A stretch of DNA of 64,000 nucleotides, taken from NCBI GenBank assembly GCA_022710975.1, contig JAKLGA010000010.1:186001-250000 (forward strand), read 5' to 3'. Shown piece by piece: positions 2,491 through 10,197 of the stretch. The notes under the pieces are model-generated. The model did not search any database. It saw only the letters and a program-made list of their open reading frames with translations, and had not been told where the DNA came from. Both the position numbers and the translations under genes were made by a program. The DNA is from Myxococcota bacterium (GTDB taxonomy: Bacteria > Myxococcota > B64-G9). Each line of letters begins with the position of its first letter. Positions within the stretch are counted from its first letter, which is position 1.

Positions 2491-2787
2491 CTAGCGGGCA
2501 CCGGGCTCGCGGCGGGCGTGCCAGACGCGCAGGATGATCACCCGTCGACCGCGGACCGTGTACACAATCCGGTACGGCGCCACGATCACCTCGCGGAGGT
2601 CGGTCCCGGGGAGCTCGGGCACCGGTCGTCCCGAGAGGGGATGCGCCTGGAGGCGCAGGACGCTCATGCGCAGGCGGCCTGCCAGGCGCTTCGCCGCGGC
2701 CGGGGCGTCCTGGGCGACGTACTCGCGGATCCCCTCGAGGTCGCGCAGCGCGGGACCGGTCCAGGAGATCGACAGACTAGTCGCCAT
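2491..2787 (-). CDS. ParE/RelE-family toxin
   Basis: A 98-residue protein with the compact RelE/ParE-fold layout: N-terminal SISWTGPALRDLEGIREYVA, a central SGRPVPELPGTDLREVIV and the terminal strand pair YRIVYTVRGRRVIILRVWHARR. The family either cleaves mRNA on the ribosome or poisons gyrase; I infer ParE-like from the helix-rich first half. I use the ATG at 2787, which overlaps the antitoxin gene by 11 bases, rather than an upstream TTG. The antitoxin-first order and the overlap are typical of type II toxin-antitoxin operons. Confidence 0.88.
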   Translation of the reverse strand: MATSLSISWTGPALRDLEGIREYVAQDAPAAAKRLAGRLRMSVLRLQAHPLSGRPVPELPGTDLREVIVAPYRIVYTVRGRRVIILRVWHARREPGAR

Positions 2788-3067
2788 CTCGCTCGCCAAA
2801 AGACTCGAGGATTCGTTCGGCCGCGGCGTGCGGATGCAGATCGCCGGCTTCGGCGGCCTGGACGCCTTCCTTGACCGCGGCCACGAACGCCGCCCGGTCG
2901 AGCAGACGCTCGTACTCCGCGAGATCGAGCAGCACGGCCACGCCTCGGCCGCGCCGGGTCAGCAGCATCGGGCGGCGGGAGCGGCGCACCTGCTCCACCA
3001 GCGCCGAGGTCCGGGTCTTCAGCTCGGTGAGCGGCCGGATGTCTTCGCTGAAACGGGTCGAGGCCAT
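2777..3067 (-). CDS. Phd/YefM-family antitoxin
   Basis: A 96-residue antitoxin beginning MASTRFSEDIRPLTELK, followed by the family's RRSRRPMLLTRRGRGVAVLLDLAEYERL segment (the DNA-binding Phd fold), with an acidic C-terminal helix expected to wrap the toxin. ATG at 3067 is preceded by GGAGGT. It should neutralise the overlapping toxin and repress the operon. Two copies of the palindrome GGTACC (3069-3074 and 3094-3099) bracket the probable promoter and are candidate operator half-sites. Confidence 0.88.
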   Translation of the reverse strand: MASTRFSEDIRPLTELKTRTSALVEQVRRSRRPMLLTRRGRGVAVLLDLAEYERLLDRAAFVAAVKEGVQAAEAGDLHPHAAAERILESFGERDGD

Positions 3068-3261
3068 AGGTACCTCCAATCGGTCCCTTGAAAGGTACCA
3101 CGAACAGGACCCGTTGGATAGCCGCCGATTCCGGACGTGCCACCCGCGTTGCAGGAGCCTGATGGCACCTAGGGGGACTCGCCCTTCGGTGGTGTCTCCC
3201 TTCCGGCCCTCGGAACTCCCGGCTTCGTCCCGCGCAGGCTTCGGCGTCCTTCGAGCAAGGC

Positions 3262-3553: not shown

Positions 3554-3925
3554 CTACTTGTCCCGCGCCTTCTTCGCCCGGTGGGCGTGGACGCGGTCGA
3601 GCACGGCCAGGGCGATGCACATCCCGGTAAGACCCATGAGGACGCCGAGGGTGATGGCCGCGCCGCCGAGCTCTCCGCGCTCCCCGAGCACCCACCGGAT
3701 CTCCGGCGCGAAGTAGACGGGGCTGGCACCCAGCAAGAAGCCGAAGAGGCCGGCCTCGATCTTCACCCAGACCTTGACCCCGCGAGGGTGGGTGGCGTCC
3801 CGGGGCTGGAAACCGGCCGCCCGGGCCGCCTCGGCCCCGGCCGGGTCGAACACGTGCCCGCAGTCACACAGGGCGGCCGACTCCGGGTTCACCAGCTTGC
3901 ACTTCGGGCAGACGCGCGTGGCCAT
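3554..3925 (-). CDS. Zinc-ribbon protein with two transmembrane segments
   Basis: This 123-residue protein opens with a CPKCKLVNPESAALCDCG zinc ribbon (CxxC ... CxCG, residues 5-22) in the cytosol, followed by a linker and two hydrophobic helices (FGFLLGASPVYF and ITLGVLMGLTGMCIALAVL), ending in a basic tail. The fold is common in bacteria but has no set function. It starts 32 bases after the long TSP3-repeat gene and is probably the last gene of the receptor operon. Confidence 0.75.
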   Translation of the reverse strand: MATRVCPKCKLVNPESAALCDCGHVFDPAGAEAARAAGFQPRDATHPRGVKVWVKIEAGLFGFLLGASPVYFAPEIRWVLGERGELGGAAITLGVLMGLTGMCIALAVLDRVHAHRAKKARDK

Positions 3926-3957
3926 CGTTCCCCCCCCCGGCGAGCTCCGGCCCCTCG

Positions 3958-6900
3958 TCACGGGCTGACGAACAGGATGAGCCGGTGGATCGAGGCGATC
4001 CTCTCCGGGTACCAGTCGGTCGCGCGCAGCGTCCAGGGGCCGTTGGGGTCCAGGCCGGCGAAGGCCGTGGCCAGGTCCTGGGCCGGGTCGTCGTCGGCGA
4101 GCTCGAGCCCGAACACGCCCCAGGCCTTGCCGGTGTGGTTGGCGAGCACCACGCTGCGGCCCCCGTGCTCCAGGGTGAGGTGCATGTCCGAGGGCGTGGG
4201 CGTCTGGATGTCGACCAGCAGGCGGACGCCGGAGGTGGTGGCCGGCAGGCCGGTCGCCTGGGTGCTGCACACGGCCTCCGTCCCCTCGACGTTGTAGTCC
4301 GGGGCGTCCAGGACGTCGTGGCAGGCGGGGTCGGCCGCGCCGCCGAGCAGCGTGCCGGGGAAGGGGACCGGGGCGCCGGGCACGTCGAACAGGTGGGCCT
4401 GCAGGGTGTAGAAGTAGGCCGCCCCGCTGCCGCCGCCGGCCGCAGCGTTCCGGATGCTCAGGCCCCAGGTGCCGCTCTGGTCGAGGATCTCCAGCAGGTC
4501 GGCCTCGCTCGTGTCCGCGGTGACGTTGTCGCTGGAGGCGAACACGCTGCCGTCCGGGGCCAGGAGCTCGATCCGCGGATCGAGCGCGGAGCCGTAGTCC
4601 GAGGACAGGCTGCGGGCGGACACCACCTGGCCGGCGGTGCCCTGGAACGAGTAGACGTCCACGTCGGCCGCCTGGTCGCGGAGGCCACAGCCGGTCGCCG
4701 CCGCGCCGGGCAGGAGCCCGAGCGGGTTGGCCGTGGCCAGGCTGTCGTTGCCCTCCGCCTCGTACACCCCGCAGCCGGGCAGCAGGTTGGCGAAGCCCTC
4801 CTGGATGAGGATCCCCGCGGCCTGGTAGGCCTTGCCCGCCACGCTGAACGAGCGCTCGACGGAGCGGGTGATTTGCAGGTAGGCGAGCGCCGGGGCGGGG
4901 AGCTGGGCGAGCTGCTCGGCGGTCAGGGTGACTGCGCCGGCCGCGTCGTCTGCCCACAGGCTGGCCACCTTGTGGCCGGCCTGGACCGTCACCACCATCT
5001 TGCTCTCGGGCTGGGTGCTGGGCGTCCAGTGGAAGGTGGAGTCGCTGTCCTGGTAGATGGTGAGCGTGGTGGTGAAGGCGTCCAGCGTCGGCGACACGGT
5101 GAAGTCCTGCGGGGTGCCCAGCCCGGCCGGGATGACGAACGGCGGCAAGGCCGGCGGCGCGGGTGTGGACCCGGGCGCGGAGATCTCGTAGTCGGCCTGA
5201 TCCACCCAGCGGTTCAGCGGGTAGTTGTTGTAGGAGGTGTACAGGGCGAGCGGCGGGTAGTGGCTGGTGTCCCACGGCACGCTCATGAAGGGCGTCCCGG
5301 CCGTGGTGAGCCGCAGCGCCGCGCCCGCGGAGTAGCTGGCGTAGGCGTCGTAGGCCGCCGGGGCAGGGATGTCGCGCACCTGCCACTCGCCCGGCGGGGC
5401 GGTGTGCAGCGGCACCACGTTGCCGAGCCACCCGACCATGGCCAGGTAGCTGAGGCCCGGCCAGTCCGCGAGCTCGCCGAACTGGGCCCAGGCGTCCACC
5501 CAGTCCCAGTCCTTGAACTTGCGCAGGAACAGGTAGCCGGCGTAGTTCGTCTCGCCGTCGCAGGCGTCGCCGAGCCCGTCCTGGTCGGCGTCCTGCTGGC
5601 CCGGGTTGGGGACGGCCGGGCAGTTGTCGCAGGCGTCGCCGCGGCCGTCGAGATCCGCGTCGGGGTGGCCAGGGTCGTCCAGGGCCGGGCAGGGGTCGCA
5701 GACGTCGCCCGCGCCGTCCAGGTCCTGGTCGCTCTGGGCCGGGTTGGCGAGGACCGGGCAGTTGTCGGCGGCGTTCGGCACGTTGTCCCCGTCGAGGTCG
5801 TCGTCGCAGGCGTCGCCGATCCCGTCCCCCTCGAGGTCCTCCTGGCCGGGGTTGGCCAGGGCGGGGCAGTTGTCACCGGCGTCGTCCACGCCGTCGCCGT
5901 CCCGGTCCGGGTCGCACGCGTCCCCGAGGCCGTCGAGATCGAGGTCGGCCTGGTCGGGGTTGGGCACGGCCGGGCAGTCGTCCGCGGCGTTGTCCACCCC
6001 GTCGCCGTCCTGGTCCGGGTCGCAGGCGTCGCCCTGGCCGTCCCCGTCCGTGTCGGCCTGGTCGGGGTTGGGCACGGCCGGGCAGTTGTCCACGCCGTCG
6101 TCGACGCCGTCCCCGTCGGTGTCCGTGTCCGTGTCGCAGGCGTTGCCCACCCCGTCGCCGTCGTTGTCCTGCTGGTTCGCGTTGGCGGTGTCGGGGCAGT
6201 TGTCCACGCCGTTGTCGACCCCGTCGCCGTCGCGGTCCGGGTCGCACACGTCGCCCGTCCCATCCCCGTCCGCGTCGGCCTGGTCCGGGTTGAAGGCGGT
6301 CGGGCAGTTGTCCGCGCCGGCGTCCAGTCCGTCCCCGTCCACGTCCCCGTCGCAGGCGTCGCCCAGTCCGTCCCCGTCGCCGTCCGCCTGGTCCGGGTTG
6401 GCCACGTCCGGGCAGTTGTCCGCGCCGTTGTCGAACCCGTCCCCGTCCAGGTCGCCGTCGCATGCGTCGCCGAGCGGGTCGAGGTCCTGGTTCTCCTGGC
6501 CCGGGTTGGGGGTCAGCGGGCAGTTGTCGGCGGTGTCGTCCAGGCCGTCGCCGTCCTGATCCGGATCGCAAGCGTCCCCGTCGCCGTCCCCGTCCATGTC
6601 GGCCTGGTCGGGGTTGGCGACCCCCGGGCAGTTGTCCTCCGCGTCCAGCCACCCGTCCCCATCGCCGTCCGAGGCCGTGTCGCAGGTGTCCCCCAGGCCG
6701 TCGCCGTCCGCGTCAGCCTGGTCCGGGTTCGGCACCAGCGGGCAGTTGTCCTCGCCCGCGCACACCCCGTCGCCGGCCCCGGGGTCGCACACCCCGTCGC
6801 CGTCCACGTCCGCGTCGCAGGCGTCGCCCAGCCCGTCCCCGTCCTGATCGGTCTGATCCGGGTTGGCCGCGCCCGGGCAGTTGTCGGCGCGGTCCTCCAC

Positions 6901-7308
6901 CTCGTCGAACTCCCCGTCGCAGGCGTCGCCCACGTGGGGCGCGAGATCCCAGAAGTCCGGGTTGTTCTGGTCGAGCTGGTCGGGGTTCGGGTCCAGCGGG
7001 CAGTCGTCGCAGGCGTCCGGCACGCCGTCGCCGTCCCCGTCCGCCTGGTCCGCGTTGGGCATGGCCGCGCAGCGCTGGCACCACTTGGCGGGGTTCTCCG
7101 GGCGCAGGCAGCCGTCGCAGGCGTCGCCCAGGCCGTCCCCGTCCCCGTCGAGCTGGTCCTCGTTGGGCGCGGACACGCAGTTGTCCAGGGCGTCGTCCAC
7201 GCCGTCCCCGTCCGTGTCGCTGCCCTTGGACGAGGAGCAGCCGCCCCCGAGGGCGAGGCAGAGGCACAGGCCGAGCGCCAGTCGCGGGACCCAGGTCTTC
7301 GGGCGCAT
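3958..7308 (-). CDS. Lipoprotein with ~17 thrombospondin type 3 repeats, PPC-like and P-domain
   Basis: A 1116-residue secreted protein. The N terminus is a lipoprotein signal (hydrophobic core, then ALGGGC at about residue 24). From about residue 30 to 585 it is built of about 17 Asp-rich repeats with the pattern DxDGDGxxDxxDNCPxxxNPDQ, which in thrombospondin-type repeats bind calcium and are cross-linked by the cysteines. Then come an unrecognised region, a pre-peptidase C-terminal-like segment (DVDVYSFQGTAGQVVSA) and a C-terminal proprotein-convertase P-domain-like fold (DIQTPTPSDMHLTLEHGG to WTLRATDWY). No catalytic domain is seen. It probably sits on the outer membrane as a rigid calcium-dependent rod displaying its C-terminal domains. 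It follows the small Asp-rich gene by 36 bases. Confidence 0.85.
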   Translation of the reverse strand: MRPKTWVPRLALGLCLCLALGGGCSSSKGSDTDGDGVDDALDNCVSAPNEDQLDGDGDGLGDACDGCLRPENPAKWCQRCAAMPNADQADGDGDGVPDACDDCPLDPNPDQLDQNNPDFWDLAPHVGDACDGEFDEVEDRADNCPGAANPDQTDQDGDGLGDACDADVDGDGVCDPGAGDGVCAGEDNCPLVPNPDQADADGDGLGDTCDTASDGDGDGWLDAEDNCPGVANPDQADMDGDGDGDACDPDQDGDGLDDTADNCPLTPNPGQENQDLDPLGDACDGDLDGDGFDNGADNCPDVANPDQADGDGDGLGDACDGDVDGDGLDAGADNCPTAFNPDQADADGDGTGDVCDPDRDGDGVDNGVDNCPDTANANQQDNDGDGVGNACDTDTDTDGDGVDDGVDNCPAVPNPDQADTDGDGQGDACDPDQDGDGVDNAADDCPAVPNPDQADLDLDGLGDACDPDRDGDGVDDAGDNCPALANPGQEDLEGDGIGDACDDDLDGDNVPNAADNCPVLANPAQSDQDLDGAGDVCDPCPALDDPGHPDADLDGRGDACDNCPAVPNPGQQDADQDGLGDACDGETNYAGYLFLRKFKDWDWVDAWAQFGELADWPGLSYLAMVGWLGNVVPLHTAPPGEWQVRDIPAPAAYDAYASYSAGAALRLTTAGTPFMSVPWDTSHYPPLALYTSYNNYPLNRWVDQADYEISAPGSTPAPPALPPFVIPAGLGTPQDFTVSPTLDAFTTTLTIYQDSDSTFHWTPSTQPESKMVVTVQAGHKVASLWADDAAGAVTLTAEQLAQLPAPALAYLQITRSVERSFSVAGKAYQAAGILIQEGFANLLPGCGVYEAEGNDSLATANPLGLLPGAAATGCGLRDQAADVDVYSFQGTAGQVVSARSLSSDYGSALDPRIELLAPDGSVFASSDNVTADTSEADLLEILDQSGTWGLSIRNAAAGGGSGAAYFYTLQAHLFDVPGAPVPFPGTLLGGAADPACHDVLDAPDYNVEGTEAVCSTQATGLPATTSGVRLLVDIQTPTPSDMHLTLEHGGRSVVLANHTGKAWGVFGLELADDDPAQDLATAFAGLDPNGPWTLRATDWYPERIASIHRLILFVSP
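5555..7226 (-). repeat. Tandem Asp/Cys-rich (TSP3-type) coding repeats
   Basis: About 17 copies of a ~36-39-codon unit encode DGDG and DNCP motifs. Copies differ by substitutions and small insertions, for example a longer unit near 6930-6990. DNA similarity between copies makes this stretch prone to recombination and to assembly collapse. Confidence 0.85.
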
Positions 7309-7320
7309 GGGACTCCTCCC

Positions 7321-7336
7321 GCCCCCGAGCGGGGGC
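7321..7336 (-). other. Intergenic GC hairpin
   Basis: GCCCCCGAGCGGGGGC forms a perfect 6-base stem in the 36-base gap between the two Asp-rich lipoprotein genes, just upstream of the GGGAGGAG ribosome-binding site. There is no T-run, so it is more likely an mRNA-processing or attenuation element than a terminator. Confidence 0.4.
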
Positions 7337-7344
7337 CGCGGGCG

Positions 7345-7908
7345 CTAGCTCCCGCTCTCCGAGTCGTCGTCGGCGTCCAGGCACTGCGGATCGCCCGGGA
7401 AGTCGGTCAGGCCGTCCAGGTCGTTGTCCTGCCCGTCCGCGCACTCGGGCGTCTCGCTCACGTCGTTGCGGTTCAGGCAGTTGGGATCGCCGAGATCGGT
7501 CAGCCCGTCCCCGTCGTTGTCCACCCGGTCGTTGCACTCCGGCAGGATCAGGTTCGCCTCGTCGTCGTCCGCGGCCGACTCGCAGCCGGGGTCCTCCGGG
7601 GCGTCGAGCTGCCCGTCGTGATCGGTGTCGAAGTCGGTGCGGCCGTCGCCGTCGTTGTCCAGGCCGTCGCTGCAGGCCGGCCGCACCCGGGGATCGCCCT
7701 CGGCCGGGTCCTGCGGGCTCTGGCAACCGGGGTCGGCGGGGAAGTCCGTGAGGCCGTCGCCGTCGTCGTCCTGTCCGTCGCCGCACGCCGCCAGGCTGTC
7801 GCCGGGGAGATCCGGCTGGTAGCCGAGCTCGCAGCCCAGGCCCCAGGCCAGGCAGCCGCCCGAGAGCCACGCCAGGGCGAGCACGAGCCTCTGCGCGTCA
7901 CCAGCCAT
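7345..7908 (-). CDS. Small exported protein with DNDGDGLTD repeats
   Basis: A 187-residue protein with an N-terminal hydrophobic signal (LALAWLSGGCLAWGLGC); a cysteine at about residue 19 or 26 could be lipidated. The rest consists of four repeats of the pattern CxDGxDNDxDGLTDxxxDPxC, Asp-rich loops like EF-hand or TSP3 calcium sites with paired cysteines. Its ATG overlaps the receptor stop by 11 bases, and the longer TSP3 lipoprotein follows. It is a candidate surface partner of the receptor. Confidence 0.75.
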   Translation of the reverse strand: MAGDAQRLVLALAWLSGGCLAWGLGCELGYQPDLPGDSLAACGDGQDDDGDGLTDFPADPGCQSPQDPAEGDPRVRPACSDGLDNDGDGRTDFDTDHDGQLDAPEDPGCESAADDDEANLILPECNDRVDNDGDGLTDLGDPNCLNRNDVSETPECADGQDNDLDGLTDFPGDPQCLDADDDSESGS

Positions 7909-10114
7909 AGCCCACCTTGCCTTGCACCGCGACGCCGTCCTGCGGGATGGCGTCCGGGATGGTCTCCGCGGAGCTGACCGGATCCCGGTAGGAGAAGTCG
8001 AGGAAGTTGGTGAGCGCCAGGCTGACCTGCAGGCCGCCCAGCACCCGCCGCAGCACCAGGGCCGCGTCCAGCCGCAGGTAGGGGTTCTCCGGGTTCGCGC
8101 TGTCCAGGGTCCAGTTCAGGCGCTCGGACACGAACTGCGCGCCGACGGACGCCAGCAGCTTGTCCTCCCACAGCGGCACCGAGGCGCCCAGGCTGACCAC
8201 CGCCAGCGGGGAGTTGGCCACCTCCTCGAGCGGCCGGGCCAGCGTCAGCGCGCCGGACAGCTGCAGCCCCCGCTCGTTCCGGTAGGCGATCTGCAGCTCG
8301 CCGCCCGCGATCTCGAGGGCGCCCTGGTTCTGGAACTGCTGGCGCGGCCCCGAGCCCTGGTAACACTCGTCGACGGGCAGGCGCTGCAGGAGATCGGTCA
8401 GCGAGGAGAAGAACACCGAGGCCCCGGCGGTCAGGCCGGGCCTCGGCTCCCACATGCCCGCCAGCTCGACGCTGCGGGTGCGCTCGGCGTGCAGGCGCGG
8501 GTTGCCGCACACCGCGGCCCCGTCGTCGAAGGACGCCTCGAAGAAGCTCGGGTTGCGGAAGGCCTCCCCGTACATCAGCTTCAGGTACAGGTCCGCGACC
8601 GGCTGGTAGATGAGCGCCGCCCGCGGCGAGAGCCACAGCAGCACGTCGGTCGCGCTGCCCGACTCGCTGAACCAGGAGTTGTAGTCGAAGCGCAGGCCGG
8701 CCACGACCTGCAGCTCGTCCAGCGGGCGCCAGTCGTTCTGCAGGTACACGCCGATGTTCCAGTAGCTGATGGGCGCGATGCTGCCGTCGGCCTCGACGCG
8801 CCCGCCGCGCCGCGACTCGGGGATGATGGCGCCGCTGACCGGGTCCAGCTCGTACATCGGCTGGGAGATGCTGTGGCGCTGGAACTCGACGCCGGCGGTC
8901 AGGCGATCGAGCTCGTGCAGCCGGAGGCTGGCCCGGGCCTCGGCGCCGAGCGTGTCGTCGTTGCCCTCGCCGACCGTGTGCGGGTCGAGGCTGAACCAGC
9001 GGCCCGCCTCCCAGTCGCTGGGATCGCGGTGCAGGTACTGCCGCTCCTCGAAACGGTCGTAGTAGGCCCGGGCCAGCAGCTGGTGGCCGTCGAGCTCGCG
9101 GGCGTAGGACAGCTCGAGGAAGCCGTGGGTCTGGCTCAGGCTGTTGTAGGGGTCGTCGAAGATGGAGTCGGCCGGGGCGCTGGGCAGGCCCTTGTAGCGG
9201 TGGCTCCACTGCGCCTGGAGCGCGAGGCCCTCCCAGCTCGCCCGGGCCCCCACGTTGTAGCCGCGCTCGAAGTCGGTGCCGTGGGTGATCCCGCCGCTCG
9301 GGGTGGGGAGGGGCAGGCTGAGCCGGGGGCGGGTCATGTCGGCGAAGCGCACCTCGGGGCCGCCGCCCTCGAGCACCAGCGCGTGCAGCCCGAGCTCCAG
9401 CCCGAAGCCGAAGCGGTAGGCGCCGCCGGCGTGGGCGCGGTAGCGCTCCAGGCTGCTGGCGCCCAGGCTGGCCGACATGAAGCTGTCCCCGGCCTGGACG
9501 CCCGGGCGCCTGGAGACGATGTTCACCACCGCGAAGAAGGCGTTCGAGCCGTACATGCTGGAGCTGGGGCCGCGCAGGATCTCCACCCGCTCGATGAGCT
9601 CCACCGGCAGGGTCTGCAGCTCGTCCAGGCCGCTGGCGGCGGACCAGGGGTTGTTCATGGTGTGGCCGTCGAGCAGCACCAGCACGTGCGTGCCTGCGTC
9701 GAGCGGGAAGCTCAGCCCCCGCACCCCCAGGTAGTAGTTGTCGCGCCCCGAGGAGACGTACAGCCCGGGCACGCTGCGGAGCGCCTCGGCCACGCTCGTC
9801 CAGGCGTGGCGCGCGAAGTCCTCCCGGGAGAGCACGCTCACCGTGGCGGGCGCTTCGGCCACGGTCTGGGCGTGCTTGCTCACCGCCGAGACCGGGGTCT
9901 GCAGGAGGTTCTCGAGGTCGATGTCGCCGAAGTCGGAGAACTCCTCCGGGAGGCTGGCCTTGCCCGCGGGCGGCGGCGGATCGGCCGGCTCGGCGCCGTC
10001 CTCGGCCAGCGCCGGGGCGGCCGCGAGGGCGGCCAGGAGCAACGCGAGGAGGCAGCGACCGTGCGTGGGGTGGTTCCCGAGTACGCCGTGCGAGGAAGAT
10101 GCCGTGGACGCCAT
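7898..10114 (-). CDS. TonB-dependent outer-membrane receptor
   Basis: A 738-residue receptor for energy-dependent uptake across the outer membrane. A signal peptide ends at about residue 35 (AAPALA). A Pro-rich linker precedes the plug domain (PVSAVSKHAQTVAEAPATVSVLSREDF, then LRSVPGLYV and VLVLLDGHTMNNPW), followed by a long beta-barrel region of alternating aromatic strands. The short C terminus ending in KVGYGW fits a terminal aromatic strand. The pattern VSxxxQxxxEAPA is common in receptors for siderophores, cobalamin or copper, so the substrate is open. I use ATG 10114; the frame extends to a TTG at 10123. It heads a four-gene operon. Confidence 0.92.
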   Translation of the reverse strand: MASTASSSHGVLGNHPTHGRCLLALLLAALAAAPALAEDGAEPADPPPPAGKASLPEEFSDFGDIDLENLLQTPVSAVSKHAQTVAEAPATVSVLSREDFARHAWTSVAEALRSVPGLYVSSGRDNYYLGVRGLSFPLDAGTHVLVLLDGHTMNNPWSAASGLDELQTLPVELIERVEILRGPSSSMYGSNAFFAVVNIVSRRPGVQAGDSFMSASLGASSLERYRAHAGGAYRFGFGLELGLHALVLEGGGPEVRFADMTRPRLSLPLPTPSGGITHGTDFERGYNVGARASWEGLALQAQWSHRYKGLPSAPADSIFDDPYNSLSQTHGFLELSYARELDGHQLLARAYYDRFEERQYLHRDPSDWEAGRWFSLDPHTVGEGNDDTLGAEARASLRLHELDRLTAGVEFQRHSISQPMYELDPVSGAIIPESRRGGRVEADGSIAPISYWNIGVYLQNDWRPLDELQVVAGLRFDYNSWFSESGSATDVLLWLSPRAALIYQPVADLYLKLMYGEAFRNPSFFEASFDDGAAVCGNPRLHAERTRSVELAGMWEPRPGLTAGASVFFSSLTDLLQRLPVDECYQGSGPRQQFQNQGALEIAGGELQIAYRNERGLQLSGALTLARPLEEVANSPLAVVSLGASVPLWEDKLLASVGAQFVSERLNWTLDSANPENPYLRLDAALVLRRVLGGLQVSLALTNFLDFSYRDPVSSAETIPDAIPQDGVAVQGKVGYGW

Positions 10115-10147
10115 GAAGTTCAATCACCTCGTCGTTGACTCGACTGT

Positions 10148-10164
10148 GGTAACAATCTGTTACC
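10148..10164. promoter_or_regulatory. Perfect palindrome, probable operator of the receptor operon
   Basis: GGTAACA-ATC-TGTTACC is a perfect 7-base inverted repeat. It lies directly downstream of the predicted receptor -10 box, at the expected transcription start, where a bound repressor would block initiation. I do not recognise the regulator. Confidence 0.55.
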
Positions 10165-10168
10165 TTTG

Positions 10169-10197
10169 TCACTATCAGGAATCCAGAGGGTTTTCAA
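10169..10197 (-). promoter_or_regulatory. Predicted promoter of the receptor operon
   Basis: On the minus strand TTGAAA (10197-10192), a 17-base spacer and TAGTGA (10174-10169). Transcription would start inside the palindrome at 10148-10164. Confidence 0.5.

Follow-up and report, generated by a model that had tools for sequence, protein, structure and literature searches.

A conserved three-gene module of a TonB-dependent receptor and two calcium-type repeat proteins in a Myxococcota bacterium

The window, the whole stretch of 64,000 nucleotides that was analysed, lies on contig C2 of a Myxococcota genome (G000) of 7.1 Mb in 29 contigs, and positions are given in window coordinates unless another contig is named. 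It carries on its minus strand a run of four genes encoding, in order, a TonB-dependent receptor, a small acidic-repeat protein, a large apparent lipoprotein with thrombospondin-type (TSP3) repeats and a small membrane protein. The features of this locus are as follows.

7898..10114, minus strand: TonB-dependent receptor (P0001), 738 amino acids from the ATG at 10114, with Plug and barrel
9533-9862, minus strand: Plug domain of the receptor, by Pfam
7345..7908, minus strand: acidic-repeat protein (P0002), 187 amino acids, with a match to NF033662 and orthologues at the matching place
3958..7308, minus strand: TSP3-rod lipoprotein (P0003), 1116 amino acids, TSP_3 at 340 bits, with an orthologue in genome G023
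5554..7218, minus strand: TSP3 rod of P0003, residues 31-585, with 18 canonical calcium-type loops
4714..5550, minus strand: uncharacterised domain of P0003, about residues 587-865, conserved in both orthologues
4456..4665, minus strand: PPC (pre-peptidase C-terminal) domain of P0003, about residues 882-951, by Pfam and fold matches
3985..4227, minus strand: P-domain (proprotein convertase type) at the C-terminus of P0003, by Pfam
3554..3925, minus strand: zinc-ribbon membrane protein (P0004), 123 amino acids, with a weak PF10571 match
10148..10164, no strand assigned: perfect 7+3+7 inverted repeat GGTAACA-GAT-TGTTACC, 33 bp upstream of the receptor start

All four genes lie where the original prediction had placed them, joined by the overlaps and short gaps that it described: the receptor and P0002 genes overlap by 11 nt, and gaps of 36 nt and 32 nt separate P0002 from P0003 and P0003 from P0004. 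At third codon positions, GC stands at 0.94-0.98 in each of the four frames, which are therefore coding. An in-frame TTG at 10123 lies ahead of the ATG at 10114, the latter being the likely start of the receptor. The only two terminator-like matches both fall within coding sequence and are no more than shuffled sequences give. Downstream of the operon, at 2491-3094 on the minus strand, there is a type II toxin-antitoxin pair (ParE-type toxin, Phd/YefM antitoxin).

The inverted repeat sits between the receptor operon and a divergent fumarase gene and is a candidate operator. A regulon built on this 17-bp element was considered and rejected, as it is the genome's sole copy at fewer than two mismatches and no such repeat was seen upstream of the receptor orthologues in G023 and G024; because it is single in the genome and not conserved in the orthologues, it also gives no hint of the ligand. 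Rfam contained no match to a riboswitch or other RNA in the upstream region, one sub-threshold microRNA match being due to chance.

The receptor has a Plug (PF07715; 82 bits, E 4.6e-23) followed by a TonB-dependent barrel (TonB_dep_Rec, PF00593; 112 bits, E 9.4e-32), the arrangement that defines a TonB-dependent receptor. It scores best against the NCBIfam models of heme, CirA-like and B12 receptors, and among solved chains CirA and BtuB come nearest; the ligand is nonetheless unreadable from the family because the score lies under every curated subfamily cut-off. Pfam finds no N-terminal CarboxypepD_reg domain of the Oar class, and the structure model has a pLDDT of 42. A comparison with SusC/SusD-type systems had been drawn for this locus, and a family link is unsupported: the SusC/RagA model TIGR04056 gives the receptor 32 bits against a cut-off of 368, the CarboxypepD_reg domain is missing, and neither Pfam nor NCBIfam reports a SusD family for P0003.

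The second gene encodes, as predicted, a 187-residue protein with loops of the DNDGDGLTD type, four in number, and NF033662 (acidic double-disulfide repeat) matches it over four stretches with 70 bits against a cut-off of 41. Two orthologues, 56% and 51% identical, stand at the matching place in the other two triad loci, the counterpart in G024 being lengthened to 502 amino acids by TSP3 repeats. The lipobox of P0002 is atypical (GLGC), those of the orthologues read LLAC and IARC, and a Cys near residues 22-26 is conserved; the protein is secreted and probably lipid-anchored.

P0003 is by far the larger of the two partners. Its rod of about 555 residues, of which 30% are acidic and 1% basic, holds 14 significant TSP_3 units and 18 canonical D-x-[DN]-x-DG-x-x-D loops, so that the "about 17" repeats first counted were a fair estimate, and with 39 Cys in residues 1-585 it shows the tandem units, calcium-type loops and paired Cys of TSP3 repeats. 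The P-domain foreseen at the other end is there: the C-terminal part of P0003 scanned alone gives 21.7 bits against the Pfam cut-off of 21, and the domain is clear in the orthologue (41.5 bits, E 1.5e-10). Between rod and P-domain lie two domains that had been missed, a PPC domain (E 0.002 in P0003, 8.5e-6 in the orthologue) and, upstream of it, an uncharacterised domain of about 280 amino acids with no Pfam match, no PDB relative and a low-confidence model. The structure model of the C-terminal part has a pLDDT of 52 and yields usable fold matches from the PPC domain only, which as modelled resembles the collagen-binding domains of collagenase as well as PPC domains (TM 0.7-0.75 over the target).

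P0003 begins with a signal peptide and Cys24 and appears to be N-terminally lipidated; its lipobox GGGC is imperfect, and the orthologues have AAGC and LSGC. Lipid anchoring would extend to all of the partners, as judged from lipoboxes that are imperfect in the window proteins and good in some orthologues. In M. xanthus, a Lys at position +2 sorts lipoproteins to the inner membrane (PMC3222651). P0003 has Ser at +2 and therefore would not be kept in the inner membrane under this rule, which comes from another family; lacking the Lys, it may well stand at the outer-membrane surface. Calcium binding by the rod is likewise suggested by the TSP3 consensus and by solved OmpA and thrombospondin relatives. 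The terms "surface" and "calcium-stiffened", as they were originally applied to P0003, are reasonable readings.

The case for these proteins belonging together rests on their conservation. Among 195 genomes of the phylum, searched with the receptor and with the C-terminal part of P0003, receptor orthologues occur in two other genomes only, G024 and G023 (52% and 51% identity; 773 and 763 bits), the next relative falling to 33% and 233 bits, and exactly these two genomes have full-length matches to the C-terminal part of P0003. The P0003 orthologue in G023 is 41% identical over 922 amino acids, and the C-terminal part is 41% and 32% identical in the two orthologues. In all three genomes, which belong to three families, the triad of receptor, P0002 and P0003 has the same order and the same 11-nt overlap, the receptor and lipoprotein genes being kept together at every orthologous locus as befits dedicated-partner genes. 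In G024 the large TSP3 gene is broken near its 3' end by a frameshift, which may be a sequence error. Around the triad the genes change, from fumarase, the ParE/Phd-type pair and the zinc-ribbon gene in the window to a protein kinase and a different neighbour set in G024, and because the outer neighbours differ between loci the linkage goes beyond mere synteny.

Receptor, P0002 and P0003 are, then, a real conserved three-gene module, and the two repeat proteins are probably the receptor's dedicated surface partners. Co-occurrence, gene order and junction geometry all speak for the original prediction that the receptor has a dedicated, Asp-rich lipoprotein as its partner. Receptor orthologues that stand alone would have refuted it, but none was found, the partners lying beside the receptor in three of three loci. 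The prediction's inclusion of the zinc-ribbon gene in the same system did not hold up. P0004 has a ribbon-like start (CxxC...CDCG) and one clear hydrophobic helix, and it was rejected as a fourth member for want of relatives in the other two triad genomes, two weak ones being found elsewhere in the phylum.

At the G023 locus (L056 4456-6615), a chemoreceptor gene with HAMP and MCP signalling domains overlaps the P0003-orthologue gene by 4 nt, which suggests that sensing is coupled to the module there; the gene is absent from the triad loci of the window and of G024.

A scan of about 85,000 species genomes, relying on two short peptide patterns that can miss relatives, gave close receptor relatives at two loci only, the same as those of G023 and G024, in MAGs named Deltaproteobacteria, and neither repeat type was found near any of 47 more distant receptor loci. 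Within the window's own family the module is present in one of nine genomes searched. This patchy distribution suggests the transfer or loss of an accessory trait.

The same genome holds a second pairing of this kind. All 18 of its Plug-bearing receptors were examined with their neighbourhoods, and one other adjoins a TSP3 protein, at the following locus.

G000:C1:658000-675000: second locus (L149), lipoprotein gene P0010 with receptor gene P0011 directly downstream

P0011 is an Oar-like receptor with a CarboxypepD_reg domain, to which the window's receptor has short local similarity only, and P0010 is a lipoprotein of 1538 amino acids with TSP3 repeats and, by eye from the sequence, PPC-like C-terminal repeats. 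Genes for a TPR lipoprotein, TonB, ExbB and two ExbD proteins run divergently from the pair. The two genes of the pair stand intact and next to each other in 16 genomes from six families (G000-G004, G006-G008, G017, G023, G028, G041, G044, G054, G056 and G189), the lipoprotein gene overrunning the contig end in several; in G005 both genes are present on separate short contigs. Because it is found with two different receptor classes, the pairing is recurrent in myxobacteria. This recurrence speaks for a partnership of receptor and TSP3 lipoprotein; the pairing is also less isolated than had been thought, and the L149 pair is probably the more important of the two.

TSP3 and acidic repeats are so abundant in this genome (24 TSP3 places, more than 100 acidic repeats) that a single adjacency of receptor and TSP3 gene is weak evidence. 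Two immediate neighbours were seen where about 0.14 would be expected by chance, given 24 TSP3 places, 18 receptors and an assumed total of about 6000 genes; the argument for partnership rests on conservation and not on this estimate.

Several further observations concern the same protein families. Distant Oar-like receptors (28-33% identity) in other families (L196-L205) mostly have directly upstream a non-TSP3 lipoprotein of about 320-400 amino acids, some with TonB nearby; no homology was found between these short lipoproteins and the TSP3 lipoproteins of the Oar-like loci, and they are a candidate for another partner family. Two TSP3 proteins about 21 kb apart on contig C1 (205175-205735 and 226008-226568) have identical scores at every repeat and are probably a recent duplication. 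A TonB-dependent receptor of about 950-1200 amino acids (L058, L060 and others) is widespread in myxobacteria, most genomes having one strong match, and the two copies examined carry an N-terminal extension of TPR-like appearance.

The reading that we favour, with confidence that falls just short of calling it probable, is a TonB-powered capture-and-import machine composed of the receptor and two dedicated lipoprotein partners, one of which carries a binding head on a rod. The first three genes would encode one outer-membrane machine, with P0003 anchored in that membrane by its N-terminal lipid. Calcium bound to the TSP3 repeats would make a long, stiff rod, holding the head (the uncharacterised domain, PPC and P-domain) away from the membrane, where it could capture a scarce or polymeric ligand and hand it to the receptor for TonB-driven import. 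P0002 might act as an adaptor or a lid at the mouth of the receptor. A physical complex, an inward direction of transport and the existence of a ligand are what we infer from this arrangement; the nature of such a ligand finds no hint in the module because it comes with no gene for a periplasmic binding protein, an ABC transporter or an enzyme.

It is unlikely, but not without precedent, that the rod instead crosses the periplasm and connects the receptor with peptidoglycan or the Ton machinery. The precedent exists because TSP3 repeats link to OmpA domains in OmpA proteins and in TraB (5wtl; PMC12045341): the TSP3 repeats of TraB are linkers to its OmpA-like domain, and the OmpA-family chain 5wtl matches by sequence. 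The lipoproteins of the second system, moreover, begin with C-D, and Asp at +2 means inner-membrane retention in E. coli (a rule cited in PMC3222651). That rule, however, does not describe M. xanthus, where the signal is Lys, and P0003 has Ser; it also lacks a peptidoglycan-binding domain, and its PPC and P-domain ends are of a kind usual in secreted proteins.

A surface device for adhesion or cohesion is quite unlikely; here rod and head would bind other cells or matrix, and the receptor, instead of importing, would act as an anchor, a signal transducer or a Ton-driven remodeller. This reading draws on the best NCBIfam name for the rod, cell-cell cohesion protein MtsC (NF047638; 458 bits against a cut-off of 350), a name whose source paper was not traced in the open-access literature, and on the overlapping chemotaxis-type gene of G023. 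That gene, however, is missing at the other two loci, and the MtsC match is confined to the TSP3 repeats that the proteins share, for which reason a transfer of the cohesion function by name was rejected. P0003 resembles MtsC and other TSP3 surface proteins in its long array but differs from them in appearing N-terminally lipidated, in ending in a P-domain with no NCBIfam match to the MYXO-CTERM sorting tail and in being encoded with a receptor.

Secretion through the receptor, with the lipoproteins receiving or displaying cargo outside, would have a model in the same phylum, where M. xanthus uses Oar and its Ton system to secrete PopC, a protease (PMC6434023), and such receptor-dependent secretion is thus established; the main text of that paper does not mention a TSP3 partner. 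The second TSP3-paired receptor is Oar-like and stands beside TonB, ExbB and ExbD. The window's receptor differs from Oar, and from P0011, in having no CarboxypepD_reg domain, its likeness to P0011 is short and local, and no candidate cargo gene lies in the operon, so that export is improbable here. Equally improbable is co-transcription without interaction, the repeat proteins being general surface decorations of a kind common enough in the genome to make a lone adjacency unremarkable, since, across families whose receptors are 51-52% identical, order and overlap persist amid scrambled surroundings and the partners never occur without each other.

Returning to capture and import, the module is best read as working like SusCD, BtuBG or TbpAB without being SusCD, as a rod-shaped variant of the receptor-plus-lipoprotein principle familiar from gut bacteria, with a function that we infer. 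Among the lipoproteins that partner TonB-dependent receptors, those of Bacteroidota and of some pathogens are the best characterised. Like SusC/SusD, the glycan importers of Bacteroidota, the module has a receptor and a lipoprotein in a single operon, and the lipoprotein is probably what captures the ligand; it differs in having no SusD fold or domain, a receptor outside the SusC class, a partner in the form of a long TSP3 rod that ends in PPC and P-domain, and an additional acidic-repeat partner. BtuB/BtuG (vitamin B12), HmuR/HmuY (heme) and TbpA/TbpB (transferrin) likewise join a BtuB-, CirA- or heme-like receptor to one dedicated lipoprotein, but the domain content of BtuG, HmuY and TbpB is, from general knowledge rather than alignment, unrelated to that of the partners here, and we know of no calcium-type rod among them. 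The TraAB system of outer-membrane exchange also combines a myxobacterial beta-barrel protein with TSP3 repeats, but in TraB these lie between its own barrel and the OmpA domain, and no TonB-dependent receptor takes part. The open-access literature describes no system of a TonB-dependent receptor with a TSP3 lipoprotein, which is weak evidence of novelty as subscription journals lie mostly outside it.

More speculatively, TSP3-rod lipoproteins may be a general class of TonB-receptor partner in Myxococcota, taken up separately in at least two receptor families that are unrelated, one CirA/BtuB-like and one Oar-like with its own Ton motor; they would make ligand capture or cargo hand-over at the outer membrane long-reaching and dependent on calcium. 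We regard this as a tentative and somewhat doubtful generalisation. The connection of TSP3 rods with Oar-like receptors and a Ton system comes from the second locus, and secretion of a protein has been shown for a related receptor, Oar. If a calcium-rod partner is indeed kept across Myxococcota families, the principle of the partner lipoprotein would reach into a phylum of predatory and social bacteria, and a testable role would be found for the many TSP3 lipoproteins in their genomes.
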